From the NCBI GenBank assembly GCA_963969365.1, contig OZ017757.1:2480001-2544000 (forward strand): a stretch of 64,000 nt of DNA, given 5' to 3'. Below are positions 15,986 to 62,400 of this stretch, in pieces. The notes beneath the pieces are model-generated. The model was given only the letters and a program-made list of their open reading frames with translations. It did not search any database and was not told where the DNA came from. Made by a program: the position numbers and the translations under genes. The DNA comes from Asterochloris sp. CNOR1. Its lineage: Eukaryota > Chlorophyta > Trebouxiophyceae > Trebouxiales > Trebouxiaceae. Positions within the stretch are counted from its first letter, which is position 1. The number at the start of each line of letters is the position of its first letter.

Positions 15986-18900
15986 ATGTTTATGTCCCAA
16001 GACCAGCTATCGCAGTCTCAGCAGCAGGCCCAGGACAGGTGCACATGCAATGCATGTGCTGCTGCACTCCTCTGGCGCCATTCAGCATTGCACCAACCCC
16101 GCTTCTGCAGGCGCCCCTACTCGCCGAAGCAGGACCCTGGCAGGCAGGCTGCTCCTGTGCGCCCTGTGTCAGCCAACACCTACATGCGGAATGCTGTGGA
16201 GGGGCCCAGGCCGAGCTCAACCTCAAATTCAGGTGCCATGCCTGTGCAGCTGTGATGCATTCCTGCATTGCCTCGGGGCAGTGCGCAGCCTCCTGCAGCT
16301 GCACTGCTGTACTGCCTTTGCTTGGGGCAGGACACAGCCTCCTGCAGGGAGCGCATGGCTCCAAAGCACCAGGGGTTCTGCAGCTGTGGTGCCCACAGAT
16401 TTCTGCAGGTTTACCATCTGAGCTGGGCAGGCAGGCTCTCCCAGGCTCTCCCAGGCTCTCACCCAGGCTCCGCGCCCCTGCAGGCAGCCCCCTGCAAAAC
16501 TTCACATCCTACAGCAACGTGCTGTTTGGGGATGAGCAGGGAGGGGACGTTTTGGCTGGGGAGCCTGCTGCTGCCAAGCCGCAGGCAGAGGCTGAGACGC
16601 CGCGGTCAATGTCTGTGGCGGACAAGGTGCAGCAGCAGATCGCGCTGAACCAGCAGAAGAGGCTGGCGCGGCTGCAGGTGAGGCTCCCGGCAGGCTGATT
16701 GGGTAATGCACGCTGGAGTCGGGGCGTTGAGTGACGTGGGCTGTCCCTCTGAGGGCGCCCTGACTGCCACAGAGCGTGAGCAGCATATGACGCTGGACCA
16801 GCAGAGGAGTCCGCGGCAGCTGCAGATGAGGCCCCTGGCGGGGATGTGTACGCACTCATGAAGCTCGAGGCTGCACATGTGTAGCTCCTGCGCTGCCTCT
16901 CCGGCTCAGCTGGTTCTCTTGGTGCGGGTGGCTGCCCCTCCAAAGGACGACGGGCAGCTTTGAGGAAAACAGCTGCACAGGGTTGGTGTGGGGCGTGCCC
17001 ATGTCCAGTGTCCTGGCCTGTGCTCCAGGCTTTATCTCTGGAGGGGTCCCTGCTGGTGGCCGGCACATTCCACCAGGCGTGCAGCAGGTGGCTGCCAGTG
17101 CGATGCCTGCCGCCCTCGGAGAACAGCCACAGCTCTAGAGGCTGCAGCATCGGTCAGCCGGCACATGCAGCGCTATCACTAGGCTTCAGTTCTGGAGCAC
17201 CTACTGTGGAGCACCTACTGAGGTCTTGGGGCAGGCACAATCATTCTGAAGCCCCCCAAAAACCTGCCTGAGCATTAGCTGGCAGGCCTCTCCTGCTCAA
17301 TGAAGCTCGACTTGTGCTTCTCTTTGCTCAACAGGCGTCAAGCGCATGCGTGAAGGGCGGATTAGCAGCTCAGAGTTAGCAGCCCAGCTTCAATAAGGCG
17401 GCTGCCTGCAGGGTGGCTGACAGCAATGTGTCTCTCGTCTCCACCTTGCAGCTTCAGTGAAGCACCTGCCTGCAGGGTGGGCTGGCATCCCAGTGGTTGC
17501 TGGCCAGCCTCCAGCTGAACCAACTGCCTGCCTACAGGGCGGGCTGGCACTTTAGGCATAGCTAAGCAGCCACTGGCTTTAATCAGGTGCCTGCCTACAG
17601 GGTGGGCTGGCACTCCTGATATCACAGTCCAGCCTACAGTCAGCTGCCTGCCTGCAGGGTGGGCCAGCATCTCATTGTGCACTGTCTAGCCTCAAGCTGA
17701 ACAAACTGGCTGCCTCTAGGGTGGGCTGGCACTGCAGAGAGCGCAGTCCAGCCTCCAGCTTCAATCAGGTGTGCCTGCTACAGGGTGGGCTGGCACCCCA
17801 GTGCTCAGCATCCAGCCTCCAGCCTCCATCAGGTGCATGCCTACAGGGTGGGCTGGCACTCCAAAAGATTGCAGTCCAGCCACCAGCTTCAGGGAAGTCC
17901 CTGTGTGCAGGGTGGCCTGGCAGCTCAGAGTTCGCTGTCCAGGCCTGGCACCCCGGGAGGCTCCCATCCCGGCACGCCTGGCGGCACATCGACGCCTGTG
18001 ACGCCATTCAGCGCCAACTATGTGCCTCAGGTGGGGCACTCATGGGCCGCGTCCGGGGGACCAGTGGCACCCACAGAGCCCCAGGATGGTGGTGACTTAC
18101 ATAGCTGCCGCATCATGCACAACAGCCGCCACACCAGGCTTGCAGCAAAGACATGGCAGTACAGCAAAGGGCGCCTTGGCAGCAGAACATGGGGTGCCCC
18201 TGCTTTGCCCCTTCCCCGCCTTACCAACGCAGCCTCCTCCACCCCTCCAGGCATGTCTTTGAGATGGTGAATTGTCACACCAGCAGCAAGCCTCAAGCAA
18301 AGTGAAGCAGGCAGCAGCAACAAGTGCTCTGTGCCCTGCAGGTGCCACCACCGCTGCCCATGACTGCATCGATGGGTGGCGGCCTCACATCGCCGCAGCT
18401 GTCGCAGGGCCTGACCGGCAGAGGGCTCTCCGGCCAACTCCCAGAGGTAAGGCGTTCACATGCACAAGCTCTGCTTCCCTTTCTCAAAGCTTCGGCTCGG
18501 CAGATGTGCAGCAGCTGCGCACATTGGCGGCAGCCCAGCCCCTGTCCTGCTGGGTCTAGATGCAATGCAATGCAGTTTCCTTCCACTTCACAATTCAGTA
18601 TTTACTTTTGGATTTGTGCCTGCAGGGCATGTCCAGCAGCCCTCGCCCTCTGCTCCAGCAGGCGACGTCCTTCCGGCGCCAGTCCTCCATGCAGCGGACG
18701 AGCTCGGCGGCAGAATCCCAGAGCTCCACAGCAGAGCAGAGCCTGGCTGCGCGGGGGTTGCCCGCCATGTATGACCCAAATGGTGAGAACCCAGCTGCAG
18801 TAATGTCAACTCTCAAGGAATTGACGAGGGATGAGTTGCTGTCATTGGGCTGGGAACGTCACATTGCTGCTTCAGCCAAGCACTACAAGGGACAGGAAAG

Positions 18901-21900
18901 TAGTGGTCATGTGTTGCAGAGCTGTGTTTGAAATATGGGGTGTGAACACTTGCTTCTTAGAGGGTCGCCCCAAGATGTTGGGTGTTGTGAGGACAGCAGC
19001 AAAGGTTTCCAGAAAGATGTTTGCAATTTGTGCCTGCTGGGTCTTGAGTCTGGGCTGATATAAATGAATTTGGTAGGCTTGCAGTTCGAGAGGGCTCCAT
19101 TCCTGGTGAGCAATAGCGTCAACAGAAAGCACTTCTGCTCTGCCTGCAGAGGAGGAAGGCTTGAAGAAGAAACAGGAGAGCGTTGCCAGGCTGAGATTGA
19201 CAGCTACGCCCGCAACATCCAGTGGTGTGGGGGCTTCTGGAAGGCCCCAGTTTACAGATGACAGGTGAGTTATGTGCCATAATGTCCTTGCTTTCTAAAG
19301 TGGGTTGTAGCATCCAGATAGACAGCAAGTGTGACGCAGGGCAGATGTGCACTTGAGATGGCCGTCCCTGCGATGCAGCACAGCTTCCAAGCCTGGAATT
19401 TACATCAAGATTGTGTGTTCAAAAGGAGAAGGCATCGGCACAGCTGATGAGACAGCACTGCTGCTGCTTGCAGGTCCTTCGTGGGGCAGCCAGGTCCACA
19501 ACAGGGGACGCCTGTCCAGTGCAGCATTGTGCGCGACAAATCCAGCAAGATGTACCCTAAATACACCCTCATGCTGGACGGCGAGAACAGGTGGCCAATC
19601 CTGCTGGTGCCACCCCTTCAAGTCTATGCAACACTCCATGGCGAACACCCCCAGCACGCGGGCTGTCCTGGCGGCTTTCCAATGTGTGCTGTGACACTTG
19701 CCCTGCCCTGACATTCAGCAGCCACCATTTTCATCCAGCCTGCAGGCTGGTCTCGGGCACCTTTTTGCCTCACAGCCAGTTGTGAGGGTAGCATGCTTTC
19801 AGCCAATTCTCAGCTGTGAGGGCGGCATGCAACGCTCCACACCAGCAGCGACCTTTTTTGTCCAGGCTGCAGGCTGGTCCCATGCACCATCTTGCCTGCT
19901 GCCTAATCTAGTTGCGAGGGCAGCATGCTACACCCTCAGCCAGATCGCCCAGGAAGCCTCCACAGACATCATGTCCTCTAAAGCACTCTGCCAGCCCCAT
20001 GTCGCTTGCTACACAGCCAGGACCTGGCCCTTGGTGCAGCAAACGCACTGCAGCCCCACTCATTCACATATGTGATTTGTGTCCTCTCGCCTGGCATAGC
20101 TCAGTGCGCCGCCTGCTTTGCTGCCAGGTCCCTGCTTTCTTCGCGTAAGTGCAAGAAGAGCAGGTCAGCCAACCACCTCATCGCGCTGGACGCAGCCAAC
20201 GCTGCACCTGCACCTCTGGCTGACTTGAAATTGCCTGCCCACTTCTCGCACTGCCCTGCCAGGTCGCTGCCGCTGGCATAGAGCCTCACACAAGGGCAAG
20301 ATCAGCTGACGCTCAGGGCTGCAGCAACGCATCAGCCAGGGTTGCTGCCGCACTGCAGGTTCCTGCTTTCTGCGCGCAAGCGCAAAAAGAGCAGGTCTTC
20401 CAACTACATCATCTCGCTGGATGTGGCCGACACTTCCAGGCACAGCCCCCACTTTGCGGGAAAGGTCCGCAGCAACTTTCTGGGCACAGAGTTTGTGCTT
20501 TACGATACAGGGGACAAGCCTGGGAAGCAGCGAGGAGGTGAGCAGACTCCAAAGCCTGCAATCGCTGCACAAGACACTGGCTATGCACCTCATGCCTTAC
20601 TTATGCGCTTTGTCCTGCCCTCAGCATTTGGCCCACTGCGCTCGGCCTGTGGCTTGTGCAGCACCGCAGGGGGCATCGTGTTGTGCCTCGGGATCCTGCC
20701 GACTTGTCGCCTCTGTGCCATCCACAGCTCACCACTGCTTTGACATGTTGCACATCTGTACGGACCAGCAGCATGCCACCTATGTTTCCTGCTGCAGCTG
20801 AGGTACATCCCATGCAGCTGGGGTGCTTCCCTTTGATCCTCTCCCCCGGGCAACCCCACTGCTGGGATGACAGAGTTGACTCCTGACATCCCATCAGCCT
20901 GCCAGTGCCCCTGCTGCAGAGGGCGACCTGCGCAGGGAGCTGGGCGGCGTCCGCTTCGAGTACAACGTGCTGGGCACGCGCGGGCCCCGCAAGATGGTGG
21001 CGGTGGTGCCAGCCATGGACCCCACGGGGGAGCCCTACATCTTCAGGCCAGAGGTGGAGAACGACAGCATCCTGGACAGGTGATGAGGCACTGGGACTGG
21101 GCTGGGTGGCATGTAGCCATCTGGGAAGTGCCCCCTGCACCGTGCTGGTGCATGGCATGGGCCCTGCGGGGAGAGCCTTGTGTTGTCAGGCTGGGAAAAT
21201 GGGTGGGCAGGCGTTGTGGATCATTGAGTGTGCTGGGGCCCGAACAACAAAGTGTCGGGCAGGCTAGTGAATGCCTTTTTGTCCAGGTCTGGGGTCTCAG
21301 GCCTTGCCCTGCTGGCTGCAAGGGGCAAGCTTCATACCGCATCTGCGCAGCCAGCTTTTGTGTCATAACTGCAGTGTCGGCTTGCTGTCTGCAGGCATAA
21401 AGCCAAGCTGCACCTCGAACAGATACTGGTAATGATAAACAAGCCGCCCAAGTGGAATGACCAGGTGACCATCCTATATCGCTCACAGTGCCAGGCCCCA
21501 ATCAGCTTGCCAGGGCTTGTCCTGAGCTCGCACAGCTCAGTCCTGTCAACTCTGCATGTGTCATCGCAGCTCTGGCAGCCAACATGTTGCTGCTCAGCCT
21601 CTGCACGTCAAGCCTTTGAGGTACTGATGCCTGCAGTTGGGCGCATACACGCTAAATTTTCAAGGGCGTGTGACCTGCGCTTCGGTGAAGAACTTTCAGC
21701 TTGTGTCCCAGACAGACCTGGACCGTGTCCTCCTCCAGTTTGGCAAGGCAAGCAAATCCTGTCAAGTCAAGCAGCATTTAGCATGCTGAGGCCCAGTTGC
21801 TTGCAGTTCTGTATGAGGCAGCTTGTCAGCTGCTGCTTGGCCTGGATACCTGGACAGTAATGAGATGGACCCCAGCCTGCAGCTGCTGCAGGCCCGGCAC

Positions 21901-22051: not shown

Positions 22052-22251
22052 AAGGCATCACCACAGCCCTGCAGAGGTTGCTCAGCTGTGCAGCGACATA
22101 TGAATGCCCAGTGTTCAGTTTTGAGCTAACACCACAAATAACATCAGAAGTATTGAGGCAGCAATGCCTTCGGTCATTCCTCAGCGTTGACCACCCCTCC
22201 CGATTGATTGAAGAATCGCATTCAGACGGTTTTCTGAGCAGACTGGCACCC

Positions 22252-25200
22252 ATGGCACAGAAGAAGGTACCCCCTGCACTGGGGAAGAGAAGTCGAGAGC
22301 CCGATGTACCAACGGGCAGAATCACCAGGGCAAGGACCAGGGTGGACCCTGCAGCGGCCGCACAGGTGCAAAATGACAATGGCAATCAGGGATGTCTCTG
22401 GCAACTAGGTGCAAGCAGGCACTCCACATGCATGGCAGCGCAGCCCTCTCTGTGGCATGTGGACCCATCAAGCATGTGTGTCTCAGCAGCTCTGTTCTGC
22501 AGTCTTGTTGCGCTTGCATGAGCGCAGTAGAGGTGATGATCCTGTTCATTAGCACTGAAGCTCAGCAGAATGTTGGCTTTAGCAGCCCATGAATGTGGAA
22601 GCTCAGCAGAGTGCTTGTTGTCCATCTGACTGACTCGGGCAATGCTTAGATCGTTTAGCTCCCTGTGGTGCTGCAGCTCACACCGGCAGAGCAGAGCGTC
22701 TGTTCTTGTATAGCTGCCGCAGCGGCGCAGGGTTGCTCAAACTCAACAAGTGCTTCTTGATCTTCTAGAGCAGCTCATGTTTGACTGGAGGCCATCAGAG
22801 TGCTTGCCTGCTCCTGCAAGTGGCGCCAGCACATGCATCACGTGAGCTTCACAGAGTGCATCTCGGCCCTGCAGGCGGCTGCTGCACAACTTGAACATGC
22901 TGCAGCGCATCAGCCAGGCTGTTCCCTTGTGCAAGGCAGTACTGCAACGTTCTGTGGCTGACCCAGCTGCTTGCCTGCTCCTGCAGGTGGCTGCCGCAGC
23001 AGCTGGCTGCAATGAGCAGTTCCCGCACCCCCAGCGCCCCAAGACAACTGCTACAACTGCCGAGCCCATTGCGCCCTCTGGCTGCCGCCGACAGGCCCCT
23101 CCGAAGCGCAGGACACGGAGTGTGCAGGCCAGAAGCCGGGCCGCCCCTCAGCCCACGAGCACCACTGAGCCCTCCACCATGAGCAATGCTGCAGGCTCGA
23201 CCCAGCCCACGCCTGGCATGACCTCCAACGTGGCAGCAGGTGAGGGTTTTCCATGGTCCACTGCTGGCTGCGTCTGAGATGGCTACTGCCAGCTGCTGAG
23301 CTTCTGATGCAATTCGCCTGTTTGGGCCAGACTGGAGCTGGGGCAGCAGCTCAGTTTGCAGGGGTCCCCTGCGGAGACTGCTGCACGGTCAAGCAGACTG
23401 CCATGTCATCACAGCATTTACCTGTGGTCTTGACCCAACTTTGAGCTTGGAATGCTGGTGCGGTACGATGTTCCAGAGGCAGCAGCTCCTTGCAATCTGG
23501 AGCAGCCTGTTCAAAGTGCTGCACGCCATCCTCTAAGAACCTCTGGTGCAAATGCACATCAGATCACCTGACAGCTTTTGCCCAGCCAGCCCGCCCAACG
23601 CATTACACCAACATGCCTGACAGGCTCTGTACAATGTTAACCTCATGCAGGCCCAAGCGCTGCCCAGACGCAGCAGGCAGCGGCAGCAACACCTGCCGCA
23701 GCAGTGCCTCCAACAACAGCAGCGACGAACAGGGCAGGCTACCCTGACGTCTTAGCACCAGGCATAGTCAGGGTTCATGTGGCTGCCCACACAAGCAAGC
23801 AGGCCGCGCGACTGAAGTCAGTGGCAGGTAGGTGGCTGCCTCAGTCAAGATCAACATGCGTTGCAACATGCTGCATTCACAAATGAGTGCCACCAGCTGG
23901 AGGTTGGTCTGTCATGCTTGCAGCAAACTCTGCAGCATACCAAGCAGGTGCCGCAGCTCAAGTGACAGGTGGGTCATGACTGACTCACGCTGGCGGCTTG
24001 CTTCGTTTCCGAGTAAATGCCACCGGCTGCATATCTGCCTACCACGCTTGTCCGGCCAGGCCTGCTGCATGTCAAGCAGGTGCCGCGGCTAAGTTTATGG
24101 CAGGCAGGTCATTAAGAAGATGCACTGCAGCTCGCCACATTCACAAGTTGGTGCCACCAGCTGGATGTCTGCCTGCCATGCTTGCCAGGCCTGCTGCATG
24201 CCAGGCAAGCGCTGTGCCCCAAGTCTGTGGCAGAGCAGCAGCACTTTTGGTCAAAGGCTCTGTTAGCATTGCAGGTGCTGTCGAGCAGCCTTCTAGACTG
24301 TCCATGCTTGAGCTATGTGCAAACCCAGGCCTAGCTTATGATTGCTTTTAGTTGCTGGTCATGCTTGAGGAGCGCTTGAGCTTGCTGCAGCTGCAGCTGC
24401 TGCTGCACATGCATGATCTGCCCTGCACATCTTTCCAGGCCTAGGCCAGCTTGTGGCTGCTGCCTCCTGCATTGCCCGTGAATTCTGGACTGCGCGCTCA
24501 GTCGCTGTGCAGTAGGCTGCCCTTCTGCTCCCAGCTCCTTCAGATGGTCCCTGCTGCAGCAATTCTGGAAGCCTGGCCAGTGCACTCAGGCTCTGTGCAG
24601 CAATCTAGTCTGCTGCTCCCAGTTTCTTGACGGCGCCCCTGCTGCTGCAGGCAAGACAGAGGCTGCGGCATTGGGCGCGGGTGTGTCGGAGCATGAGGAT
24701 GCCACAGCCACTGAAGAACCAATTTCTAACTCGGCAGCAGGTGAGATGCTGCCCAGACCGTGGGCAACTTGAGCCACCGCTGGCCACTGCTGCACTCGCA
24801 GTATAAGAGGGCACGAGCTTGCCTGCCGTGCCTAATTTGCCTGGCCTGCAGATGCTCAGGCTGTGTGCAGTGGCCTCACCTGCTGCTGCCCTCTGCTTCA
24901 GATCACCACTGAGGTGTTGACTAGTTGTAAGCATGTTGCTTGTGGTGGTTAGCTGCTCCCCTTTGTGTCTCTGCAGCTTGCATGTGGAGATCTGCCTGCC
25001 TGGACGACATGCCAGGGCGGAAGCCTGCCAGCCTGTCATGTTCTGCCCTGCCAATCAACTCTCTGTCCTACCTCTGTGCAGGGTTGACCAAGTCACACAA
25101 ACACCGTCACACCCCCTTGATGCAGGCACTTCTGTCAGCAACAAGTCTTCTCTGTCAATGTACCTCATGGGGCCACTCTGCACTTCAGGATCTATTTGCT

Positions 25201-28200: not shown

Positions 28201-31200
28201 TGGCATGTGAGCTCACAGGGATCTGCGCCTGCATGCGGTTCCTGTGACAAGCATGGTTGTGGGGGCTGTCTGCGCCGGCAGGTGAGCTCCTCAGCATCTG
28301 CATCAGGAGGATCATGACCTGGATAGCCTGCTGGGGGCAATCGCTTTTTGTGCTGCTCAACACGGCCCTTGCCCATTGGCCAACACGCCTTGTTCCAGTC
28401 TGTGCTGCTGAAGACAGCCCATGTTGGCAGGGGCAGCACCTCAAAGTCCTGCCAGGGGCCGACTCTCTCATTGTCAACACTCCACGTCTGCATAACTCAC
28501 TGAAGCCCAAGCCAGGGACAGTAAGCTGTGTGCCACCAACCCTCTGATGTCAAAGTCTGCGCTGCTGATCGCAGGCCTTGTGGCTGCAGGGTGATGTGGA
28601 CGGCCTGCTGACAGCCACAGTCGAGGGGCTGGTGTTTGGCAGCCCCGCTGGGGGGGGCACCTCTGCTGGCGGTGAGCCACAGCCGTGCATGAGCAGCCTT
28701 GTTGGGCGCTGGCCCTCCTGAGGGGTTCTGAAGGGTTGCAGAGCCTGAAGCCGGCAGCGGTAGTCAGAGGTGTCACAGCAGGCCGTGACCCTCCAGCGCT
28801 TCACTGACAGCTGTGCTGATCGCTGTGGGGCCAGGCGGGGTCGCAGGCGGCCAGCCTGTGCAGGCAGACGCCACGGCAGCCTACTGTACTGCCCCTCTTC
28901 CACTCTGAGCTCTCCCTTTGAGTCCAATTCAGGCGGCGCAGCCTGACCTACCCGCAGCAGGCCGCGCAGAGTATTTGCTTTTCAGTCTTCTCCTTTGCAA
29001 GCAGCCAGCCTGTGCAGGCAGACACCACAGTGACCGGTCATGCCTCTTGTACCACCCCCCTCTTTTGGTGATCCTCCCCCTGCAGGCGGCCAGCCTGTGC
29101 AGGCAGACGCCCCAGCAACATGCCAGGCCTACTTTACTGGCCCTCTTTCTTTTCTGACTTCTGCGCTGCAGGTGGCTAGCCTGTGCAGGGCCAAAAACCT
29201 CCAGCAATAGGCCACGCCTGCTGTACTGCCTCCTTCCTGAATAAAATGCTGGCTCCTGCCCTGCAGGCGGCCAGGCTGCGCAGGAGAACGCCTCAGCAGC
29301 CGGCCACGCCCCTAATGGCGCCGGCAGCCAGAGCCCTCTCCCCCAGGCGACTCAGGCAGCCACCTCCCCACGCACCTCCCAGGTGGCGGCGGCATTCCTG
29401 CAGCTGCATGCTGGTGCGGCTGCTCAAGGTGAGGCAGCAGTGACTGCAGGTGTGCATGCAGCGGGTGCGGTCAGAGAGCTGCCTGGGGACAGCATGCAGG
29501 ACTGCAAGGCAGCAGCAGCAGCCCCTAATGGGGTGCCTGCGTGCACCCACCAGGCTTGCGGTGCAGTGTGCACATGTGGCATCCTCCAAATCTCGGCCGA
29601 ACAGCAGCTGTTGCCTGTGCATGCCTGCGCCCAGTCTGCAGCCGCAGGGCTGCCTTTACCAAGAGAGGGGGAGCAAGCCTTGAGTGAGCACCAGCAGCCA
29701 GCAGCAGCTGCCCCTGCAGCAGGCCACCGCTGATACCCCTCCGCTTTCTTTCTGCCGCTGCAGACCAACAGCCTGTGACGGCAGACCTCCACGCAGCAGC
29801 CCACGCAGCTGCCCCTGCTGGTGCCAGCAGCCTGGACTCCCGCCCACAGGCTACCCAGAGGGCTGCCCAGATTGCTGACGCACGCAGGCAGCTCCATGCT
29901 GACGCAGACCCTGCAGGTGGGACACCGCCACCCAATGCTGTCCATGCCCAGTCCCTTGTGCATGCCTGCACCCGCTTGCAGCAGCACCAGTGCCGTCCTC
30001 TAGGAAGGAGGCACAGTCAGCACAGTCTAGACACCTGCATGGCCCCTGTGCATGCCTGTGCACTTTGAGCAGCTCCAGCACAGCCTTCACCTGGAGATGT
30101 GGTCGGTGAGCCAGCTCAGAATGCAGCAGCAGCATTCTCTATGCACCGCACACAGCCTCTCCACAGCCTGTGCTAAGCCACTCGAATGGTGAGCAAGCTC
30201 ACAAAGCAGCAGCAGCCGCCTCTGTGCCTGTAAACAGTGAGCAGCCTCAGCACAGCCATCATCAGGAGACGTTGACGGTGGCAGGTTCAGACAGCCTCTG
30301 TGCAGGCTGTCACATCCTTGACAGCGGCAGCACAGCTCACCCTCAGCAGACAGCAACGCATGCAGAGGTGACTTCAGATGCGCTTCCCAGCTTGGGTACA
30401 GCGGTCGAGTTGTTCAGCATCTGTTTGGGGGGGTCGCTTCACACAGAGGCATGACTTCCCACCTGCACACCATTGCAAGCTGCACGCTTCTCATTGGACC
30501 CTCCTGGCCTCCAGGGTCATTGGCAACAGCAGGCCGCTGGCACCGGTGACATATTTTTGCAACAAATGCCGGGGGCACTCTTCCCCACCTGACGCTGATT
30601 GGGCGGGCATGCGATGGGGGATACCACAACATTCCTCTGCTGCCTGCGCAGGTGCCCAGCACGGTTGATCCGTGCGGGTGGCAGGAGTCCATGCATTGCA
30701 CACACTGAGGCTCCTGTGCGAAGGGCTGCAGGCCACGCTGGCCCAGAGCAGCAGCCACTGCCCGCCAGGCCTCCTGTGCAACGCTCTGCCCTCCCGTGCA
30801 GGTCATGGGCCTTGCTGTGCTGCCCCGCACCAGGCACTGATGCTTGCTGCCTCCTCTGCAGGCAGCGCAGGGACGGGTGACACAGCCCCCATGTCCCTGA
30901 ACCCCAACCAGCAGCCAAACAGCGCTGGGATCCCTGCTCAGGCGTCAGACCACCCTGCGGGCAGCAGGCCTGGGCAGGCCCAGCTGCGTTGCTGCATGCG
31001 GCGCGCCAGACCCCTCCAGGCAGCCAGTGCTGGCAGCCGCAAGAGGGTGCGCTTTGCAGCCCTTCCCCCTCCGCAGAAGCGGGCCCGCCGCGAGGCTCCC
31101 CCTGGTGGCCTCATGCACGAGCCTGCAGCTGCCGCTGCCAGCGCTGCTGCTGCGGCCCAGGAGGACTCCCCTCTCCCAGACGAGTGGATGCCGGATGTAG

Positions 31201-31610
31201 CTGCCGGGTATGCATCAGCTGAGCGCAGGTGGGACTCAGAGGCGTCTCAAGAGCTGAAGCGTGCGGTGGAGGCCTACCATTATCCTGACCAGCTGGATTG
31301 CGAAGAGGGCGTGGAGGCCCTGTGGGAGGACGCAGACATGCCCCAGGCAGAGCAGGGGGTTGCAGGCAGCAGTTCAGACCAGCCCGCAGCGCTTGACGCC
31401 GGGCACGGCCTCGGGTGGGCGGCAGCTGGCGTCCACCCTGCAGCGCTTACAGTGGGGAGCTTGCAGGCGCACCAGCACGCCTCAGCAGGCCTCTTTGGCC
31501 CCATTCAGCCAGAGCTTGAGGCTGATGACGGCATGGGCTTCGACTGTCCCTCTGAGCCAGACGCAATGCTGAGCGGCGGCGATGCGAGTGATATCTATGA
31601 CCTATCCTAG
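22252..31610 (+). CDS. Large coiled-coil protein, unrecognised family
   Basis: Thirteen exons in phase give about 1304 residues: 22252-22365, 22987-23239, 23651-23827, 24651-24740, 25208-25347, 25509-25610, 25756-27405, 27858-28043, 28124-28180, 28590-28671, 29267-29428, 29764-29916 and 30862-31610. The start is MAQKKVPPALGKRSREPD, 200 bases after the tubby-like stop. Residues 1-290 are low-complexity, basic and Ala/Thr/Pro-rich (PPKRRTRSVQARSR). The 1.65-kb exon 7 is almost pure heptad coiled coil with three exact-length 31-residue repeats plus a partial one. The C-terminal 250 residues hold a bipartite basic cluster (SRKRVRF, PPQKRARRE), an acidic helical patch around WDSEASQELKRAV, and the end GGDASDIYDLS. 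No catalytic motif, signal peptide or membrane segment was seen. A nuclear structural or scaffold role is an inference from the basic clusters only. The 28180 and 28590 junctions and any small exons between 29428 and 30862 are the least certain. Confidence 0.8.
23870..24245. repeat. Three copies of the 3' edge of coiled-coil-gene exon 3 with donor
   Basis: Intron 3 holds three units of about 130 bases containing GTGCCACCAGCTGGA-type text and CAAGCAGGTGCCGC..AAGT..TGGCAG-type text. The latter matches the end of exon 3 (AAGCAGGCCGCGCGACTGAA, then GTCAGTGGCAG before the GTAGGT donor at 23828). The units start roughly at 23870, 24010 and 24150. Confidence 0.7.
26914..27230 (+). repeat. 93-bp in-frame coding repeat (31 residues)
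   Basis: Units start at 26914, 27007, 27100 and, partly, 27193. Each encodes EEKLALQQQVSQLE, a variable three or four residues, then RRLSAAAAEAQSDK with very few changes. The period is 31 rather than 28 residues, so heptad phase shifts by three at each unit, which implies a periodic skip in the coiled coil. A more diverged relative precedes the first unit at 26833. Confidence 0.95.
28840..29270. repeat. Array of copies of the start of the 29267 exon
   Basis: Blocks beginning near 28849, 28997, 29086, 29172 and, as the real exon, 29267 each carry GGCGGCCAGCCTGTGCAGGC or a variant, usually behind a CTGCAG acceptor and pyrimidine tract. In the phase used by the gene they read GGQPVQADA and related text; some run into stops, and the copy at 29086 stays open to the next CTGCAG. 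They may be relics or alternative exons. A related start (DQQPVTADLHAA) opens the true exon at 29764. Confidence 0.75.
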
Positions 31611-34330: not shown

Positions 34331-36881
34331 ATGCCTCACGTCGCATATTACCGCAATTGTGAGCCCTCTGCTTGGCAGGCGCCAGATCCTGGAGTCATTG
34401 CCTGAGCTCTGCTGATCTGTACCGCCAGCTTGCATTCATTACTTGCCTGGCTCTCTGCATTACATGGCCGCCATGTAAGGAGTGCACATCACCGCTCTCA
34501 GCACCTCTCCCATTGCCCTACTGCAGTCGGAAAGACCTTCAAGAAGCCCAGGCGTCCCTTCGAGAAGGAGCGTTTGGATGCAGAGCTCAAGCTGGTGAGA
34601 TACTATGTGTTGTTGCCAGCCCAGATGCTGGACAAAGCCATCTGTGGGGACTGGGGGGGCGGGGCAAAGCTTGGACGCCCCTTGCAGCTCTCAGAGCCGG
34701 CCCCCAGGCACAGAACGGAGGAAGGCAGGGCAGACCCCACACATCAGCTGCAAGAGGCGTCCTTACAATGAGCCATGAGTGTGTCTCCTGTGCTCAGCTG
34801 ATGGCCTAAGCCACTGCTGCTGGGGCTCAAGGTGTTTCAGCACTTGGACCTAGTCTATCAAGGACTGGCTGCAAATAGCCCTCTCAAAAGTCATGCTCCC
34901 TTGACTGTGCTGTGCCTCCAGCATCAGAGCTCTGTGCTGACTCTGTCCCCAAGGAGCGCCATGTGCTCTCGCAGCGGGCAGCCACGCAAGGCCGCGGCCC
35001 AACACTAGCTGCCATTCCTGCATTGTCATCGTGCTGCTGGAGTGGTGCAGGTGGGCACTTCAGGGCTCTGACCGCCACTCCCCACTGTGATTGCAGGATG
35101 CCAGCATCCCCTCTGCTGCAGGCAGCGCAGGAGCGTCTGCATTGGACTGCTTCGGCTGATGTCTGTGCAGCTTCACACTTCAAAGCTGAAGCTGCTTGCT
35201 GCTGGGCTGCTGGACAGGAGCGCAGCTGCGCAACAAGCAGGAGCTGTGGCGAGAGCAGTGCTGTCCCAAGCTGTCTCGCTCAAGCCTCACTGCTGACACC
35301 CTGCTGTGCTGCAGGTGGGCGAGTATGGGCTGCGCAACAAGCGGGAGCTGTGGCGCGTGCAGATGGCTCTGTCCAAGATGCGGAATGCTGCCCGCAACTT
35401 GCTGACAGAGGATGAGGGCTCCACCAGGCGCCTCTTCGAAGGTGAGCTGGGGGGAGTACATTTTGTTACCCAGAGGGGAACACATCTTGTGAATGGAGGA
35501 TGAGGGCTCCATCAGGCGACTCTCTGAGGGTGTGCTGGAAGACATGAATGCAGCAGGGGGCCGCTCTGCCCTGAAGCTCTAGCAGTAAGGCATGTTTTTT
35601 CTCAGGGGCGGACTCTATGGGGTGGACTCCACCAAGTTCTGTGCAATGAGAGGCTGCTGCATTCCGACAGGCTTTGGCCTGGCACAGTAACTTCTGGGCT
35701 GCACAGGTGTGCTGGAGGCTGATGATTCCACGGCTTGATCCGTCTGTTGCTCCTGTCCTGGTCATCCTCAGGCAGCTGAAGCTTAGGTACAGGGGCTGAA
35801 ATCTGCCGGCAGCCAGAGAGTGCACGTGGTGCTCTGGCTGCTCCAAGAAATAGCCCCCTCTCGCCTGAATAGCAACCGTCGTGGAGCCATAGAGCCAATG
35901 AGCCGCTGGCACAGCTTGTGTGGGAAGCCTGCTGTCCCCCCACCCACCGAGTGCGCCCTCGGCCACCAATGGCCTGCGGCTGACGCTGTACTCTGCGCCC
36001 TCCTGCAGGCGAGGCCCTGATGCGGCGCATGTACAAGTATGGCCTGCTGGACCCCGCGCAGAACAAGCTTGACTACGTGCTGGCCCTCACACCTCAGGAC
36101 TTCCTGGAGCGCCGCCTGCAGACCCAAGTCTTCAAGCTGGGCCTGGCCAAGAGCATCCACCACGCCCGCGTGCTCATCAAGCAGCGCCACATCAGGTAGG
36201 GGAGGGCGCACAAGTGCAGGGGCTGGGGATCTGAGCTTAGGAGTGCTGCCGGTGCTGAAACGCTCTGCAAGGTGACACAGCTGTGGGGCAGCCTGGGAGA
36301 TGTGGCCGTCATAGACCTGACAAGCCACTGTGTGCCACTGGGAGGCATTGTGCGACCTTGTCAGCTCACTTCATGTATTTCCTGACCTGACTGAGTGTGC
36401 CTGTCCGTGCAGGGTGGGCAAGCAGATCGTTAACGTCCCCTCCTTCATTGTGCGCGTGGACAGCCAGAAACACATCGACTTTGCCCTGAACAGTCCCTTC
36501 GGCGGCGGCCGCCCTGGCCGTGTCAAGAGGAAGAATGCCAACAAGTGAGCGGCGTCGATGCCAGTGCTGCCCTGAGCTGTGTTCGGGCTTGCCACTCTCT
36601 AAAGGATAGGCAGCCTCAGGGGCTCTGATGTTTGGCTTTTTCTAAAAATGGTCACTCTGCTTGTCATGCATGCAACGGCAGCGTTGCCATCGGGCTCGAG
36701 CAGCAGCTTGTGCAGCACTCGGGTTGCGCAACCTGCAGCAGCATGCGGCATGTAGGCGTTGCGTGCGTGCCTCATGTCCCGCCTAATTGATCTTGTGTAA
36801 TGAGCTGCTCTTTCTTTTGTCTGCAGGGGCAAGGGCGGCGGTGGCGGCGGCGGTGATGAGGAGGAGGAGGACGAGGAGTGA
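34331..36881 (+). CDS. RPS9: 40S ribosomal protein S9 (uS4 family)
   Basis: Six exons in phase give 198 residues: 34331-34358, 34527-34594, 35315-35441, 36009-36195, 36413-36544 and 36827-36881. The first exon codes only MPHVAYYRN plus one base; the join gives [20 protein letters not shown]. Then follow [37 protein letters not shown], the S4 RNA-binding region ([37 protein letters not shown]), and [15 protein letters not shown]. The last exon adds a Gly-rich then acidic tail ([11 protein letters not shown]). This is close to the full family length. Retention of the last intron would end the protein at KNANK, because the donor GTGAGC makes AAG TGA in frame. Introns 2 and 3 contain decayed copies of both edges of exon 3. 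Confidence 0.98.
35205..35280 (+). pseudogene. Decayed copy of the start of RPS9 exon 3
   Basis: The text GCTGCGCAACAAGCAGGAGC followed by TGTGGCGAGAGCAG..CTGTCCCAAG copies exon 3 (GCTGCGCAACAAGCGGGAGC, TGTGGCGCGTGCAGATGGCTCTGTCCAAG at 35330-35377). It lies 60-110 bases before the true acceptor at 35314. Confidence 0.75.
35494..35545 (+). pseudogene. Decayed copy of the end of RPS9 exon 3
   Basis: GAGGATGAGGGCTCCATCAG followed by GCGACTCTCTGAGGGTGTGCTGG copies the end of exon 3 and its donor (GAGGATGAGGGCTCCACCAG, GCGCCTCTTCGAAGGTGAGCTGG at 35409-35450). It is about 90 bases downstream of the true donor. Confidence 0.8.
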
Positions 36882-40942: not shown

Positions 40943-43900
40943 TCATGCTGTTGGCTGGTATTGCTGAGCAGTCTGCAGTATCTGCTGGGCCCCTGTCACT
41001 TCTTGGGGCTGCTGTTGGGCACCGTTAAATCCTTTGCGGTCATTGGGCCCATTGCTGTCAGCAGGAAGTGTTCCTGGCTGCTTCCGTGGGATGCTGAGCA
41101 ATAGTTCAAAGGGGGCCACCTGCAGCACACATGCAAGCCTCAGACAGGGGACAGTTGATCAGGGGCAGCCACAACATGTACGCCTGAATGGTGCTAACTT
41201 CATGGGCAACTTTGCACTTGCTCACTTCTGAGCATCACCCATCTAAGGCTGCCACACCAGAGACCAGCACAGCTCACTTGATTAAAGCCGTCCTGCCATA
41301 GAATCTGGACAGCATAGTTGCCCAGTGCGGCCACGGATTCGGGCGTGATGTCCTCTGGGATGTCTGAGTCCCTTGACATCTTCTCCCCCGTCCACTCGTT
41401 GATGCTCTTGGCTGAGGTGTCATTGCGGCGCACAGTCGCAGGGTCCAGCAGCAGCTGCTCAGACCCAATGCTGGCCACGAAAGCATGCTGGGCTGCATCG
41501 TACCTGCAGGCACACACCTGTCTCAGGTGTGGTTCTGCATGCCCTGCAGCAGCACACGTGCAGGCCAACCCTGTCCGCTTAAGCCCTCTGTTGCTATCAA
41601 TAGGGGCTGAGCACATTGCACTGCAGATGTATTGTCTGCAGTCTGCCAATTTCTGGTAAGATTGAGGCTGGTCAACACATACAATCATGATATTGTACCA
41701 GACAAGCTTGTTCTCCATTCTATATCTGGGCACAGCATGTCCAGTCTGAAGCTCTTGTACTGAGCGTGACACTCTGGGTCATTGCATCAAGTATCAAAGG
41801 TAACATTGCAGGCTTGACCTCCAGTGCTCCTCAATGGCTGGAGCCAGCAGCTCTGGTACATAGAGCAAATGCTGTGCAGCTTCTCCCACAGGCTGCCTCT
41901 TGTCATGCACAGCTGCGCTGGGCAAAAGCGCACCTGATGCTTAAGGGTGTCTTTCTCTGTTGCTGAATTCAGCAGCACAGAAATGCCCCTGCAGACTCCC
42001 TCTGCTCATGCAGAGTTGCACCGGCATACCCCCATGCCAGATGGAAAGCCTACCTGACACAGTGCCATGTTGAGCTTTGGCCTTCCAAGCTCATCCACTA
42101 CATAAGCCATCAGCTTTGTGACACACAGAGGCACGGCCACTCCGTGTCTCCTTCTGCTCGTGCATAAGTGCACTGGTGTTCTTCCTGCAGGCTCATGCAC
42201 AGGTGCAACGGCATGCCCTCATGCAAGGTGGAAAGCGGACCTGACGCTGTTGCGGGGCGCCAGCTTCAGCTTGGCCACCTCCTGCACAACTGCTGCTCCC
42301 AGGTTCATGAACGCCTGGGAGGTGGAGCTCATGGGATCAGATACGACCAGCGGCTGCCCACCTGCAGGGCAAGCAGTGGCCATCTTGAATAATCCGTCTG
42401 CTATATGGGGGCACAGGAGGGGGGTTGACTCGCCCAGCAGCTGCCTGTCTGTAGGCCAGGCAGTGTGGAGTCCCCAAAAAACCAGATCTGCCAAACAGCA
42501 CAGGAAAGGCATTGCAGCCAATACCAGTGGCAACAGCAGCCACACAACGATGTTGTGATACGGGGTACAGCAGAAGGACACCTTGCGCGGCTGCAGAGCA
42601 GGCATATGAAGACCTGAGAGCTTGTCCTGCACACAAGAGACAAGCAGCCCTGCTCAGCTGCAGGGCCAGGCCTAAATTGCGCCTAAGGCCAACATCCAGA
42701 TTCAGTGTGGATGGCAGCCGCCGACAGGGGTCAGGTGTTAGCCACAGCAGCATTGTCCCAACACACATGGTACGAACATGCATTGCAGCATGCGCTGCCA
42801 CGCCACGAGGACAACAGCAGCACGCTGCGTGTCCCTTGATCTTATAGACAGACAGGCCTGACTGTCCCCAGCTGTTAAGGTGCTCCACAAATGGAATAAA
42901 TGGGCTGATCCTATGCGGATCACAGCTGCAAGCTGCCCACACACCGCTGCAGAGAGGGGGCCCCCAGTTGGGGACTGCAGCAGCGTGCCCGCAGCCAGGC
43001 AGCGTCTGGGGCACGCTGACTCACCATCCCCAGCTGCTGAGAGGTGCTGCTCAATGGGGAACTGGAAGAGGTTGGGCAGCCCAAAGTCCTTAACCACGCG
43101 CTGTCCCGACCCCTTCCCAAAGGGAAAGTAGCGCCGCCCGTCGGCCTCAAAGTAGGACATGTTCTCCACCACAGCCACACAGGGGACCTGCACACGCACA
43201 AGCATCAACAGTCAGCTGCAGAGCCACAGGCCTGACCCAGAATCCACTGCACATCGAGCAGCGAGACCTGTGGCTCCCTGAGTGGGGCTCCTGAGCAAGT
43301 TTCTGAGAAGAAGCAGTGAGGCCTGTGGCTGCTTGAGTAATGTTCCTGACCAGGTTCCTGAGTACTGTTGCTCATGAGCCTTGACGCAATGGCCAAAACA
43401 GCCACGCGGGGAACCTGCATATTTATCTAATTTTTAACACGCTTCTGACTGATGTTCAGAACAGTGCTGTGGCGCAGTAAGCGTTGCCTGTTGGGCAAAC
43501 AAGGAGCTGTGGCCTTGAAACCAGCACCAGCACCAGCCACAGCCACAGCCACAGATCATGGCATGCGTTCCCCACTCTTGACTGTGAGCTGCAAGCAAGA
43601 CAGCTCAGTGTCCTGCCAGAGCGGGCTGCATGGAAGTAAGTCACTGTGAAAGCAGCACAGGGGGCGATGACTGCTGAGTGGGAGGTTCACTAAGGGGGCC
43701 AAAGCCTGCAGTACAGACCGCACCTGATTCCGGCGCCAATAGCTGGCACCTGTGCCTCATGTGCCCACTCTTCGGGCGTGCGCCCAGCTCCACCACTGAA
43801 GGAGATTACTGTATCGAGCAAGCCTCTAGAACCCTATGAATGCGCAGTCACAGCTTTTCAGCAGAACCTATTGAGGTATACAAAGCAGGACCTTACAACC

Positions 43901-47172: not shown

Positions 47173-47435
47173 AAGAGATTGGGCGGAATGCAGCCTGACA
47201 CATCTCGCTCCAGCAATCTCTGGCAGAGCCTGCAGCAGAACTGAAGAGTCAATCAGCAGCCTGAAGACAGGAGGAGGTTTGTCACAAACCCCAAGTTTGC
47301 CTCACCCTCTGGGCAGGACACAGAGAAGCCATGCCGGCACAAGGATTCGGGACCGGATGTGTCACTTGGGGTGATGCAGGTTAAGAAAAACAATTTGATG
47401 CTTTCCATGCCTTTGCATTGGACCTGGATTGCCGG
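47173..47435. promoter_or_regulatory. Shared divergent promoter, HCF101 / SPATA17-like
   Basis: A span of 263 bases separates two divergent start codons. No TATA box or X-box-like cilium-gene element was recognised by eye. Confidence 0.5.
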
Positions 47436-50277: not shown

Positions 50278-50405
50278 TATGTGGCTGAGAACACACCAAT
50301 GAATTTTAGAAAGGGGGTACAGGGTACAGCATGCTGAGCGGGATCATCATGACAAAGACTCAATGCAACAGGCCTGGTGAACAAACACATGCAGCTCATC
50401 CTATC

Positions 50406-56400: not shown

Positions 56401-59400
56401 CCATATAGGCGTCACCAGAGCGATCACATCTGCAAGAAAGGAGCGCCAGGCCACCGGCCCAGCTACAAGCACAAGAGTGCTGCCAGGACAGTAAGCACAA
56501 GACCACTGGCAGCCTGACTCACGAGAGGCCATATTTGCCCATGGCGGGCATTTTTGCCAGCTCCTCCTTGGGCAGGTTCAGGTAGTGGCAGGGGCGGGGC
56601 TGCACCCACTGCAGGCAGGCAGGTGCAGCCAGTGAGGCAGCAGGCAGGGGCAGGGACAGATCAAGATGTGGGGTCCAGTCCTGTGCAGGCCAGCTCCAGC
56701 ATGCATGCATGGGCAGGGGCAAGGCTGCAAGCAGCATGCATAAGCAGGGGCATGGGCAAGGCTGCAGGCAGCACGCATGAGCAAGGGCTTTGGCAAGGCT
56801 GCAGGCAGGTCAAGGGGCACTTGTCACTGAGGCTGCAGGCAAATTAGGGGCCACCTGTCAGTGGAGGCAGCAGGCAGGTCAGGGGGAACATGACAGTGGA
56901 GGCTGCAGGCAGCACTGGGGTTACTTGTCCGTGGAGGCTGCAGGCAGCACAGACATTACTCACAGATTGGAGGCTGCCTGCACAGCAAGCTCTGTGCCAC
57001 AGGGCAGGACTCAGATCAGTAGCCTTACGTGCCCGCACGGGAGCTGACTGCTTGGGAGCCAACAAAAGAGAAGGAATCAGCTGGCTCAACTGGTTGATCA
57101 GACCAACAGCTGCTTGTACCACTTTCCCCTGTCCTTCAGCGCAGTCAGCTCCTACGTTAGCTGACAGCTGACGGCAGACAGCCAAGCAGCCTCCTGCTGC
57201 ACAGACTGCTTGCTGCCTCCTTCCGAGAGTCCAGCAGCACCTTTTATGCATCATCAGCAGACAGGCTGACAGCGACCAAGGGCGTCACGCCACCCAGGGC
57301 TGCTTCACACTTGTCTCTGCTTTGCAGTCTTGCATCACCTCCATGCCAAATCTTGCATCACCTCCAATAGCCTCATGTGAGGTGAGAGCCATCAGCCGCT
57401 TACCTCCTTTGCCTCATAGCAGTCCCGCAGCCAGCCTATGGACAGGATGGCACGTGGCTTCTTTGTCTTCGGTGCAAACCTGTACCTGTTGAAGGAGGCT
57501 GCGTACAGGCCCTCCTTGCTGCCAGCCACAAGGTAGTCCGTCGGGGTCTTGCTGTCTTCCAGAAAGTTCATGTGCATCTGCAGGCACAAGAGGGGGCGCT
57601 TACTGGCGGGCTGCTGGCAAGACGGGGCTGTGCTTGCTACTGACCCTGGGCAGAGTGGAGACAAGGCCGCGCAAGGACGCGCAACACCCTTGCAGCTGCT
57701 GGGCTTCTACCAACCTGATGCCAACCTGATACCAACCGTCAGAGCATGCTGAATGCTTCCGTTACTGATTGACTGCTGGCAAGGAGTCAGCATGCTTCAG
57801 CTGCAGAACCTTGGCAAAATGCAGACTCAAGTGGCAGCGCAAGGGTACATGACCCTGCACGAACCAGCCATACGATGCAAATTTAGGATGCACATACCTC
57901 AGCTGCTGGGTCTGGCCCCCGCCTTGCGCCAGCATCAAAGCATGCTGGGTGCTCAAGGGCAGTGCCACAAGCTGCCTGAGCAAAGGCCTGATGGCTGCTG
58001 CGATGCGGCACTCAGATGAGCTACAGTAAAGCCCTCATGGCAGCCTGAAAGGGGGCCAGAAACAAGACCACAGCCCAACAAACCCACCGTGGCCCCAAGC
58101 TTATGTACGAGTTCCTCCAGGTCCTGCTTGTCGCTGTCTGGGCCATAGTTGACCACTGCAACAGTCTTGTCCTCCAGGGCTTTGCACTCTACCTGCACAG
58201 CACCAGACGAGAGCATTCCTGCCAATGAGAGAGCCACCCCCCACATGCACTGCAAGGGTGGCAGTGCAATCAAGTGCTGAGGGCTGCTGGCCAGGACACC
58301 TGCAGCACAGCTGGTCTGCAGGGCACCGGCTCTCCCAAAACATGCCAATTTGCCTCCACCGACTTGCAAGGGCGTCCTTCATGTGGACGTGGTGCTGCCC
58401 TGCAGTGCCACGCAGCACCACCAGGTGCAGATCACAAAGTGCAAAGCACATAGTGCATTGATCAATCCCATCGTGATGTCCGCCACAGTCAGAGGTTCAG
58501 AGGGAGAACCCTCCCATGCTGTTCTGCAAGGGGAGGCAATTGTGAAAATCCCTCACAGACCTGCAGTAGTCCACCTGCACATTGAAGGCATGGTGTTGGC
58601 GGCCCCAATGACCTCACTACACGACAAGACTGGAGGTCAAGCTGTGGGCAGCATTACGGACCAGCCACCACCTAACCGTCAGGGGGCAGGATGTGGGCAG
58701 CCTTGCTGATCAATACTCACCTTGACATTGTCCAGCTTGGCGTGCAGGCGGTGGTCGATGACAGTCACACTGGCAGCTTGCTTCCTGGCCTGCTTCTGCT
58801 GGCGCTTCCTGGAGGTCCGGTTGCCCTGGGCAAACGCATCCTCCGGAGTTCCACCTTGACCTGGAGGCGACATGACAGGGGTCAGAGCTGTGAGCCTGCG
58901 CTGTCTCAGTGCTGCTTCACAGCTGTGCCTCACTGCTGAGAGGGTAGGCCATGACGCTGTGCTTGCATGGCAGCAGAGTCCAGCCTCATGTTGCAAAGCG
59001 CATGACCATCATCTGCAGCTTGAGAGCCGACCACAGTCAGACCCAGAGTTATGGACCATCTGATCGCAGCAGAGGTGCTGAGATAGTGCTTTGCTGTCAC
59101 GGCAAGGTGCTGAGCAGCACAGCATGTGCCTCACAGCTGTGCCTCACAGTACAGACTAGGGCTTTGGGAGCACCGCCCTGGCCTGCAGGCAGCACGACAG
59201 CAGTCAGAGGAGTGGGCAGGCAAAGACGGTGCAGGCTGTGCATGTAGGGAGGATTTGGCGCCCTGCAGACAATATAACAGGGGTGAGACCAGAGAGTGCC
59301 TGGCAGGGGAGGAAGTGAACATGTTCTGCCAGTGCAGGCTGCGCTGCACCAGTCATCGAATGAAGGCCTGCAGCCGTGAACTCAAAGTACATGCTGCATG

Positions 59401-62400
59401 TGTTAGCAGCTCTGCATTATGAGCCAGCCTGTGTGTCTCAGGGGGGCTCAACCTCCTGAAGGGCCTGTGACTCCCTGTGGCCCTGTGCTGACTGCCACCA
59501 CAGCGATTGTGCTCAGCCGCTCCAGCCAGCTAGATCAGCATACCACAGCCTGGCCAGCCCACTTGGTTGGCATACCCTAGCCTGACCACGCCCAGGATGG
59601 ACCCCATCTCTGTGCAGCCTCATGTCTGAGCCTGCCACCCACAGCTGTGGCAGACTGCTTCCATCAGGCACCCAGGCAGGCCAGGCTGCACCTTGTCACA
59701 CTCCATTTGGGAAGGGGTGCAGGTTACAACCGGCAACTCACCAAGGAATGTCCCCTTTGCGTCCGCCAGCAGCCTGTTGAAGTGCTCTGTGGTCTCGACA
59801 TCTGCTGCCCCCTTGTCCCAGCGTATCCCATGATCCACCACACGGGGAAAGCGCAGGCTGTGATATGTATAGAACTCTCTGGACTGAATGCCACGAATGT
59901 CAGCAGTGACCTGCAGTGCAAGAGGGCATGTACAGATTGTGCTGAGGCGGAACGCACTCGCTTCAGGTACTGTAGGCGTCTGCAGTGACCTGTAGCGCAG
60001 GAAGGCATGGCACTGTGGAGCCCTTGCGACTATGCTCATAATGCTTGCCATCGGTGGAAACCGCACGTGCAACAGCATGCGGTGCAGCTGCACAGATCCC
60101 TGCAGCGCTTCAAACCACTGTGGCAGTATGCATGAGGACTGCACGCCCAGGCAGGCTGGCATTTTTTCACGCACCAAGGCTGACTTGGCGCCTCACTGGC
60201 TCTGGCAGGCCATAGGCAGGCGTGTTTAGGGTTTAGGGCGCAGAGTAGCCAAGGTGTGCCCAGCTTGCCTTCAGAACAAGCGATTGGTACGGGTCTTTCA
60301 CCCAGAAGTCTGGCCTCTCCTGCAGCCGCCCGGTCACTTTGTAGCATTTCGGCCAGTTCTTTCCAGTGTTGGGCATCAGGTGAGGCTGCAGACGCTCCCG
60401 CACTTGCATCTGCTGTGCGTCTGTCAGGCCTGAGCCCACCCTGCAGTGCATGGAGGTGGCGTGGCTGATGTGGGGGCCTACTGCTGCAAGTGTCTGGCGG
60501 GCATCAAGCCCCTCAGAGGCAGATGGGGCCGGTGTTGCCATGCGTCGGGCTGTTGAGGGTGGGCTCCTGGAGCATGAGACCAGGTGACAGTGCCCAGTTC
60601 ATCGCATGTGTTGCCCAGGTGACAGCATTTGTGATCCCGTCTGTGCCCACATCTGTGCCCACCACTGTGCCAGCATACAGGTCTGTGCCCGCCACTGTGC
60701 CAGCATGCAGAACTGCGACGCACAGAGGGGCCCTTGTGGTAGGTTGCCAGACTTCAACATGGACACATCATCTTCAGTCACAGGGTCATGTGATAGGCAT
60801 ACCATGCTCCTGTGCTGTCTTGTGAGCAATGGGCGCAACCTCCCAGGTCCTGCCCCTTCAGCCACAGTTGCCAGGCAAAGCTGGCTAGTAGTTGCCAGCA
60901 CATGCTGTCTGGCACTCTGGGCCTCACTTGCAGAAGCTGTGGAAGGTGTGCGGGTTGTCCTGGCCGTTCTTGGGCTCTTCAGCCAAAGCCAGAAGGTACT
61001 GAGACACCTCCCCTCCGTGCCTGCAGTGCCAGCAGCCAAGTCAGCAGGCACACACTCTCAAACACAACATGAGCGGCAACCCAGCACAGGGAGGTGATGG
61101 GCTGAGGTCGGCAGGACTACGCAGGACTACGACGTGAGACCTGAAGGCTGAGTAGCACCTGGAGCCATGTAGCAAAGCATCTGAGCCTGCACATGGCCAT
61201 GCAGGGAAGCCAGCATGAGGGTGCTGAATGCAGCCCAGCCCCGGTCACCACATGTCAAGGGATAGGCTGGCGCTGCAACACATTCAGGTGAACACAGCAA
61301 TGCAGTCAAGCCACACCAGTCCAGTCCATTCACGCAAATGCGGCATGACATTGCACCAAAATGAACCGACGAATGCTGTCAGGCTCAGCCTGCCCTCTCC
61401 TACACCCGAAAGCATTGGGGCTGGCACTCACCCATGCCAGAGCCAGACCTAGGGTGCTGATAACACCCAGCTTTTACCTGCCTTCGCCCCACATGGCGCC
61501 AATAATCAGGCAGTCCACATCTGCAGCATGAGTGTGGTCCGGCTTGATCTTGACCCAACACCCCGAACGATCATTGATCTGCCACTCTGAATGCAGGTCC
61601 TTGACAATGACGCCCTCCTCCTGCAGAGCAGCATTTCTTCGCTGGGATCTTAGGCCACACGCTGGGCCAGCTGTGGGCTCTCAAGAATACTCAGGATGCA
61701 TGTCCGTGACCGCAACATCCTGAAGAGCAGCTGCTGCTTGCTGAGGGTTTCGACCAAAACATTGGGGCTGACTGTGGGACCTTGAGAACAGTAAGGGTGC
61801 AGGTCCCTTGATCATTGTGCCGCTCTCCCACATGGCAGGCACTTCATGCTGAGATGGTTGGCCAAACATTGGACTGACTGTGACGCCTTAAGACAGTTCA
61901 GGGTGCATGTTGGCGACCACAACACCCCCTCCTGCAGGGCAGCCACTGCGTGCTGACATTTGTGTGGTCACATGTGGGATTGACCATGGGCCTTCAAGAA
62001 CACTCAGGGTGCAGAGTTTGAGATTCTGCGCAGGTACCAGTCCACAAGCCCTGATACTACAGACCACACCAGCTGACACAATGTGTCCTGTATCAGGCTG
62101 CAGGCTAGCACATGGCGGGTGCTGCCTTCAGCAGAGGGGGAGGTTGCTGCGCTTGGCCAGATCCTCTGCACATACTATGCAAGACGTAGAGGCTGCAGGG
62201 TCCCTGGTCAAACATGAGAGCAGCTGTGGGATGCCTGGCTATCAGTCAAAGGCCCAGCAAGTCTTTCAAGGCAGCAACAGGCTGAGATTGCCACTGCCCA
62301 ACAGTGAGGCGGTTCTGGGCCTTCTGGGTCCTTGGCAGGCACTGAAACTGCCATGGCTCATCCAAGACTCACCCCCAGGCTCAGTGCATGTTCATAGCCA

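Follow-up and report, generated by a model that had tools for sequence, protein, structure and literature searches.

Decayed copies of exon edges in the introns of Asterochloris sp. CNOR1 are probably relics of ordinary small tandem duplications

Introduction

Within a 64,000 bp stretch of the genome of the green alga Asterochloris sp. CNOR1 (contig C12, positions 2480001-2544000; hereafter the window), several unrelated genes possess introns that hold diverged copies of the edge of a neighbouring exon together with its splice site. The question raised by this locus is whether such copies require a process that seeks out splice junctions. An initial annotation, made from the sequence alone, had argued that junctions are hit too often for random microduplication. 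The copies were found to be real and to reach beyond the window. They most probably belong to a class already described, internal gene duplication across an intron-exon boundary. Small tandem duplications of an ordinary sort, tolerated by splicing and subsequently ageing, are probably sufficient to account for the pattern.

Sample and gene models

The source genome comprises 56.4 Mb in 21 contigs. The main sample of 304 kb consisted of the window, 50 kb from each of contigs C1, C5, C9 and C17 and 20 kb from each of C3 and C13; a further 40 kb, fetched later, was used solely as a late check with the gene model unchanged. A gene finder self-trained on the 304 kb sample itself yielded 55 genes and 531 introns, with a median intron of 283 bp and a median exon of approximately 128 bp. 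The splice consensus in the models was AG/GTGAG at donors and TGCAG/G at acceptors, TGCAG being near-invariant. Two in-frame stops were present across all gene models. The Pfam scan covered six window proteins, the coiled-coil protein lying outside it, and recovered the expected domains in all six (GPN1-like, Tub, RPS9, HCF101-like, LIG4 and an IQ-motif protein).

The first model set placed very short exons on exon-edge relics and fused RPS9 with its fasciclin neighbour. To counter spurious exons, a second set was built in which exons had to reach a minimum length; in it RPS9 and its neighbour were separated. When introns were swapped for synthetic DNA, no false exons of score 5 or above were predicted. 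Quantitative tests were restricted to exons with a score of at least 6, which retained 290 of the 531 introns and 580 junctions; this cut-off, in combination with the minimum exon length, counters the possibility that the copies are an artefact of spurious exons.

Copies of exon edges in introns

Direct similar segments with a score of at least 18 and lying within 1.5 kb of each other numbered 289, against 5.5 expected from far offsets. Removal of redundancy left 245 pairs in 127 loci, 43 of which paired a splice junction with an intron (10 of 33 loci inside the window and 33 of 94 outside it). When 80-base windows over the 580 trusted junctions were compared with their own introns, 37 direct copies were recovered at 30 junctions (19 acceptors and 11 donors), whereas unrelated introns, representing a search space 42x larger, predict 0.02. 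No inverted copy was found in the own introns of the same 580 junctions. Chance similarity is ruled out by the far-offset, unrelated-intron and inverted controls, and the earlier description of the copies as direct was borne out. Introners or other dispersed intron elements, which would place similar copies in the introns of unrelated genes, gained no support from this comparison; it covered the junction windows, and dispersed families at large were not searched for.

The copies are local. Most are 25-75 bp in length, with own-intron offsets of 73-360 and one further offset of 62 in the later 40 kb; the initial annotation had placed them at 30 to 90 bases and at distances of 50 to 800 bases, and is corrected to that extent. 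In the main sample no copy lay closer than 73 nt to its true site, but the offset of 62 contradicts such a minimum. About one intron in ten is affected (32 of 290), 23 of these being among the 74 introns of at least 480 bp. The median length of affected introns is 612 bp compared with 332 bp for all, although longer introns are also larger targets.

Junction copies recurred in every larger sampled stretch but C13, for which none was listed. The late 40 kb yielded nine pairs, six of them in the trusted set (three junction-intron, two intron-intron and one junction-junction); it agrees in kind with the main sample and is too small for testing the exon-length filter discussed below.

For the distribution of duplications, 142 of the 245 pairs lay wholly within the retained set at offsets of up to 700, comprising 105 intron-intron, junction-intron or exon-intron pairs and 37 exon-exon, junction-junction or exon-junction pairs. 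Clustering of pairs gave 64 loci, 56 of them at offsets of 60-400. Duplication loci occurred at 0.15 per kb in intergenic DNA (5 loci), 0.21 in introns and 0.15 in exons. The density is thus similar in all compartments, and the premise that random duplication would not gather at junctions fails. Offsets were divisible by three in 13 of 14 exon-exon pairs, as opposed to 13 of 43 junction-intron pairs (p 8e-5 for the difference) and 13 of 37 intron-intron pairs. Only exon-exon offsets are thus in frame, and selection is seen where it is expected. Acceptors exceeded donors by 37 to 19 overall and by 18 to 10 in the 56 trusted loci; this bias is not much above the simulated ratio of approximately 1.05-1.5 to 1 and was not built upon.

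Random tandem duplication as a null model

Random tandem duplications were simulated in the real gene structures with the outer junction kept in use. During simulated decay the true exon and splice site were constrained, all other positions being subject to substitutions, a CpG excess and insertions or deletions (indels), and detection was performed as for the real data. With young, uniform ages the exon-touching pairs amounted mostly to 42-50% and the segments were too long; intermediate settings gave 50-58%. Age-matched simulations predicted that 63-76% of pairs touch an exon, against 40 of 56 observed, and ages of 0.2-0.6 substitutions per site gave 0.76 (p 0.44). A high share of exon edges is therefore expected of random duplication, contrary to the argument of the initial annotation. 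Exons (approximately 128 bp) and introns (approximately 283 bp) are short beside a unit of approximately 130 bp, and for that reason random units often touch exons.

The sequence of events that we favour would begin with small direct tandem duplications, with units of approximately 60-350 bp, arising at near-equal density genome-wide, perhaps through break repair or slippage. Where a unit crossed a junction, splicing would presumably continue at the outer, original junction, leaving the inner exon edge and its splice site stranded within a lengthened intron. Duplications confined to an exon would persist almost exclusively where their length is divisible by three. The copies stranded in introns would then decay, the exon half of the pair remaining readable for longer because one of its two copies, the true exon, is conserved, such that the remnants would come to centre on the junction. 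Finally, a splicing filter may remove copies with more than approximately 80-100 nt of exon, plausibly since these would be spliced in.

That last step was added to the simulation as a rule whereby a surviving copy holds at most approximately 80-100 nt of exon. Several observations weigh against random duplication as a sufficient cause. Without an exon-length limit, 28 of 40 exon-touching loci involve a junction against a simulated 0.48 (p 0.006), the reach into the exon exceeds 60 nt in 6 of 40 against 0.40 (p 0.001), and extended homology on the exon side is seen in 2 of 27 against 0.34 (p 0.002). The rule returned these three misfits to p >0.05 in four settings with one exception, exon-side extension, which at ages of 0.2-0.6 with a limit of 100 nt still misfits (p 0.027); at the same ages a limit of 80 nt leaves too small a share of exon-touching pairs (0.56, p 0.022). 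Junction-intron pairs showed no detectable homology outside their best segment. In the five positions next to the splice site, acceptor boxes are kept at 59 of 75, above the age-matched 0.54-0.60, donors being in agreement with the simulation. Few young, long duplications were found, and the required spread of ages carries an old bias that is left unexplained. Moreover, the 56 loci used to judge the fit had also served to tune both ages and limit, and the agreement represents sufficiency rather than independent proof. Under the best setting (ages 0.25-0.65, 80 nt) the simulated shares were 0.28 for intron-intron, 0.50 for junction-intron and 0.23 for exon-intron pairs, compared with 0.29, 0.50 and 0.21 observed; coverage of intron positions 11-20 nt from the junction was overpredicted, at a relative 0.51 where 0.26 was observed. 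The earlier remark on centring at edges accordingly holds in part: the simple null is too loose (p 0.001-0.006), and the exon-length filter removes most of the misfit.

Alternative explanations

Foremost among the alternatives is a process in which breaks, nicks or strand switching concentrated at exon-intron borders copy short blocks, from about -10 to +50, into the nearby intron. Borders would then be hot spots from which such blocks land 60-350 bp inside the adjoining intron. Introns would grow longer in this way and acquire decoy acceptors, of which some would be kept and used. Copied positions do peak sharply at exon edges, at 50-78 per 1000 bases for the first 1-20 nt of exon, falling to 0-1.5 past 100 nt; at 21-200 nt from the junction on the intron side they number 5-15 per 1000 intron bases (ranges span clustered and unclustered counts). 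Junction copies also lack flanking homology on both sides, while in intron-intron pairs it continues past the best segment in the manner of tandem units. Of all the observations, this missing homology speaks most strongly for a separate mechanism. It is not complete, as a separate flank test found similarity in 7 of 30 junction copies at p <0.05, against 1.5 by chance. An indication of whole-unit homology from lenient gapped alignment was dropped, a control with replaced flanks having given nearly the same extents. Under random duplication, the loss of the intron-side flank is accounted for by older ages and that of the exon-side flank by the exon-length rule. The similar density of duplications in intergenic, intronic and exonic DNA and the absence of inverted copies also speak against a process tied to borders. 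We consider such hot spots unlikely; a junction-seeking process is not needed, and perhaps a small chance is left for one.

Somewhat less likely again is that some of the copied acceptors are live, serving as alternative acceptors or poison exons under selection. Splice boxes were examined in 15 acceptor and 14 donor copies picked by exon sequence alone at a score of 15. In acceptors, positions -1 to -5 showed the excess over simulation; in donors, positions +1 to +5 matched in 40 of 70, the simulated rate. Identity deeper in the intron was near background. Younger simulated copies kept 0.67-0.75 of the five positions and those with more indels 0.42-0.47. In addition, three copies appear by eye to bear a more canonical TGCAG than the modelled acceptor (58845-59217 in the window, and 33286-33443 and 38796-38971 in the C17 stretch). 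Junction-intron offsets, however, show no preference for frame, and mismatches by codon position (0.21, 0.15 and 0.28) are in line with constraint on the exon and none on its copy. Furthermore, TGCAG is slow to mutate in general: in intron-intron duplicates such words were kept at 0.86, compared with 0.80 elsewhere and 0.59 at CpG. This general persistence narrows the acceptor-box excess without closing the gap.

The ratio of observed to expected CpG was 0.32 in introns and 0.48 in exons when all sampled introns were included, accompanied by an excess of TG, CA and TGCA, a pattern as expected from the decay of methylated CpG. CTGCAG is approximately 16x commoner in introns than base composition predicts, as a consequence of this CpG depletion and the accompanying excess of TG, CA and TGCA.

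The initial annotation had offered three causes. A repair or slippage process focused on a pyrimidine-CTGCAG box fares poorly, since 11 of the 30 copied junctions are donors, which have no such box, and TGCAG is both abundant and slow-mutating. Template switching gained no support, the junction copies numbering 37 direct and none inverted. Selection that spares duplications leaving the true junction intact, there regarded as a filter and the main competitor, is the best supported of the three.

Very improbable is intron gain by the Rogers model, in which an AGGT-containing exon segment is tandemly duplicated and one exon copy becomes intron: it likewise leaves exon-like sequence in introns, according to PMC3443670 and PMC4974935, but it predicts that the start of an intron matches the start of the downstream exon when the two are compared one intron length apart, and none of 290 introns reached a 60% match (mean 0.254 against 0.261 for the control; mirror test 0.252 against 0.252; for detectable ages).

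Copies in the named genes

Each of the six genes named by the initial annotation carries at least one direct copy of an exon edge that includes the splice site (Table 1). Those proposed for the tubby-like, coiled-coil, RPS9, HCF101 and LIG4 genes were all found by alignment, LIG4 being the weakest. GPN1 had been listed as less clear; its copy is present and is strong rather than unclear. In the tubby-like array each repeat contains an acceptor-like box, the final one being the used acceptor 17910. The RPS9 copy at 35225-35258 lies upstream of exon 35315-35441, its source being near the start of that exon. HCF101 has a plastid role, and the presence of an HCF101-like gene, together with the near-invariant TGCAG acceptor, is in keeping with a green alga. 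The copy in the HCF101-like gene sits past a small predicted exon at 42141-42184.

Table 1. Exon edges and their intronic copies in six genes of the window (window coordinates)
Feature	Position	Strand	Partner or offset	Identity and score
GPN1-like true exon edge, acceptor 12502	12468..12514	-	copy offset 250	0.87 over 47 bp, score 33.8
GPN1 exon-edge intronic copy	12718..12764	-	12468..12514	
Tubby-like true exon end, donor 16677	16631..16694	+	copy offset 148	0.78, score 33
Tubby-like exon-end intronic copy	16779..16842	+	16631..16694	
Tubby-like intron array, ~9 repeats of ~62 bp (repeat families, TRF and pair alignments)	17340..17942	+		
Tub-domain exon start, intronic copy	20125..20203	+		0.81 over 79 bp, score 46
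Tub-domain exon true start, acceptor 20358 (Tub domain by Pfam)	20356..20434	+	copy 20125..20203	
Coiled-coil acceptor 22986, intronic copy	22801..22831	+	true 22968-22998	0.87, score 22
Coiled-coil acceptor 29266, intronic copy	29078..29129	+	true 29259-29310	0.81, score 30
Coiled-coil acceptor 29266, extra copies	28843-28881, 28987-29047, 29154-29189	+		0.69-0.82
RPS9 intron copy of exon bases	35225..35258	+	35329-35362	0.91, score 27
RPS9 true exon end, donor 35441	35408..35450	+	copy offset 88	0.86, score 30
RPS9 exon-end intronic copy	35496..35538	+	35408..35450	
HCF101-like donor 42240 edge copy	42004..42063	-	true 42191-42250	0.82, score 36
LIG4 true acceptor 58860	58845..58895	-	copy 59167-59217, offset 322	0.73, score 20
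LIG4 true acceptor 59910	59899..59930	-	copy 59978-60009, offset 79	0.84, score 21

Other repeats were observed in or near these genes. An intron of the GPN1-like gene contains a 14-bp minisatellite of approximately 11 copies (13506-13658), and a coiled-coil exon encodes a 93-bp tandem repeat (26887-27252) whose units are 86-91% identical. A stretch of the last coiled-coil exon (31129-31372) is repeated approximately 805-820 bp downstream at 31951-32175 (223 bp at 77% identity). On this second copy the gene models place low-scoring minus-strand exons, possibly artefacts. Positions 59-177 and 10507-10626, in two minus-strand models 10 kb apart, are 88% identical over 118 bp and share a peptide that we take to be kinase-like. 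Because one of these two copies falls within the final exons of the GPN1-like model, that model may extend too far. Elsewhere in the genome, plant-type TTTAGGG repeats were present, among the contig ends listed, at the two ends of C1 and the beginning of C2.

Relation to known systems and significance

Internal gene duplication, as attributed to Gao and Lynch (2009) in PMC3443670 and PMC4974935, is direct, tandem and common in eukaryotes. The copies in this alga resemble it in being direct tandem duplications inside genes, and differ from that account in being old intronic relics that imply no new intron. According to the review PMC3443670, introns can originate from exonic segments duplicated in tandem, and PMC4974935 reports a tandem duplication over an intron-exon boundary in an RNA-dependent RNA polymerase gene of potato; there, a new intron arose within the duplicated region, whereas in the alga a single longer intron appears to have absorbed the inner copy. 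Break repair by CST and polymerase alpha-primase has also been named as a source of small tandem duplications, which are given in PMC8355091 as the commonest short insertions in the human genome. The products described there are, like the algal copies, short and direct; many algal offsets, in contrast, exceed 100 bp. A literature search found no survey of decayed exon-edge copies in introns, which is no proof that none exists.

The analysis supplies a numerical baseline against which exon-like relics in introns can be judged. Where exons and introns are both short, the majority of duplications of this size that can still be detected will involve an exon or its border, and conservation of one copy keeps the relic recognisable. 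Gene prediction can be misled by such relics. They also point to a route by which introns are lengthened, the offsets of the 64 loci summing to 8,825 bases against 107,800 bases of trusted intron.

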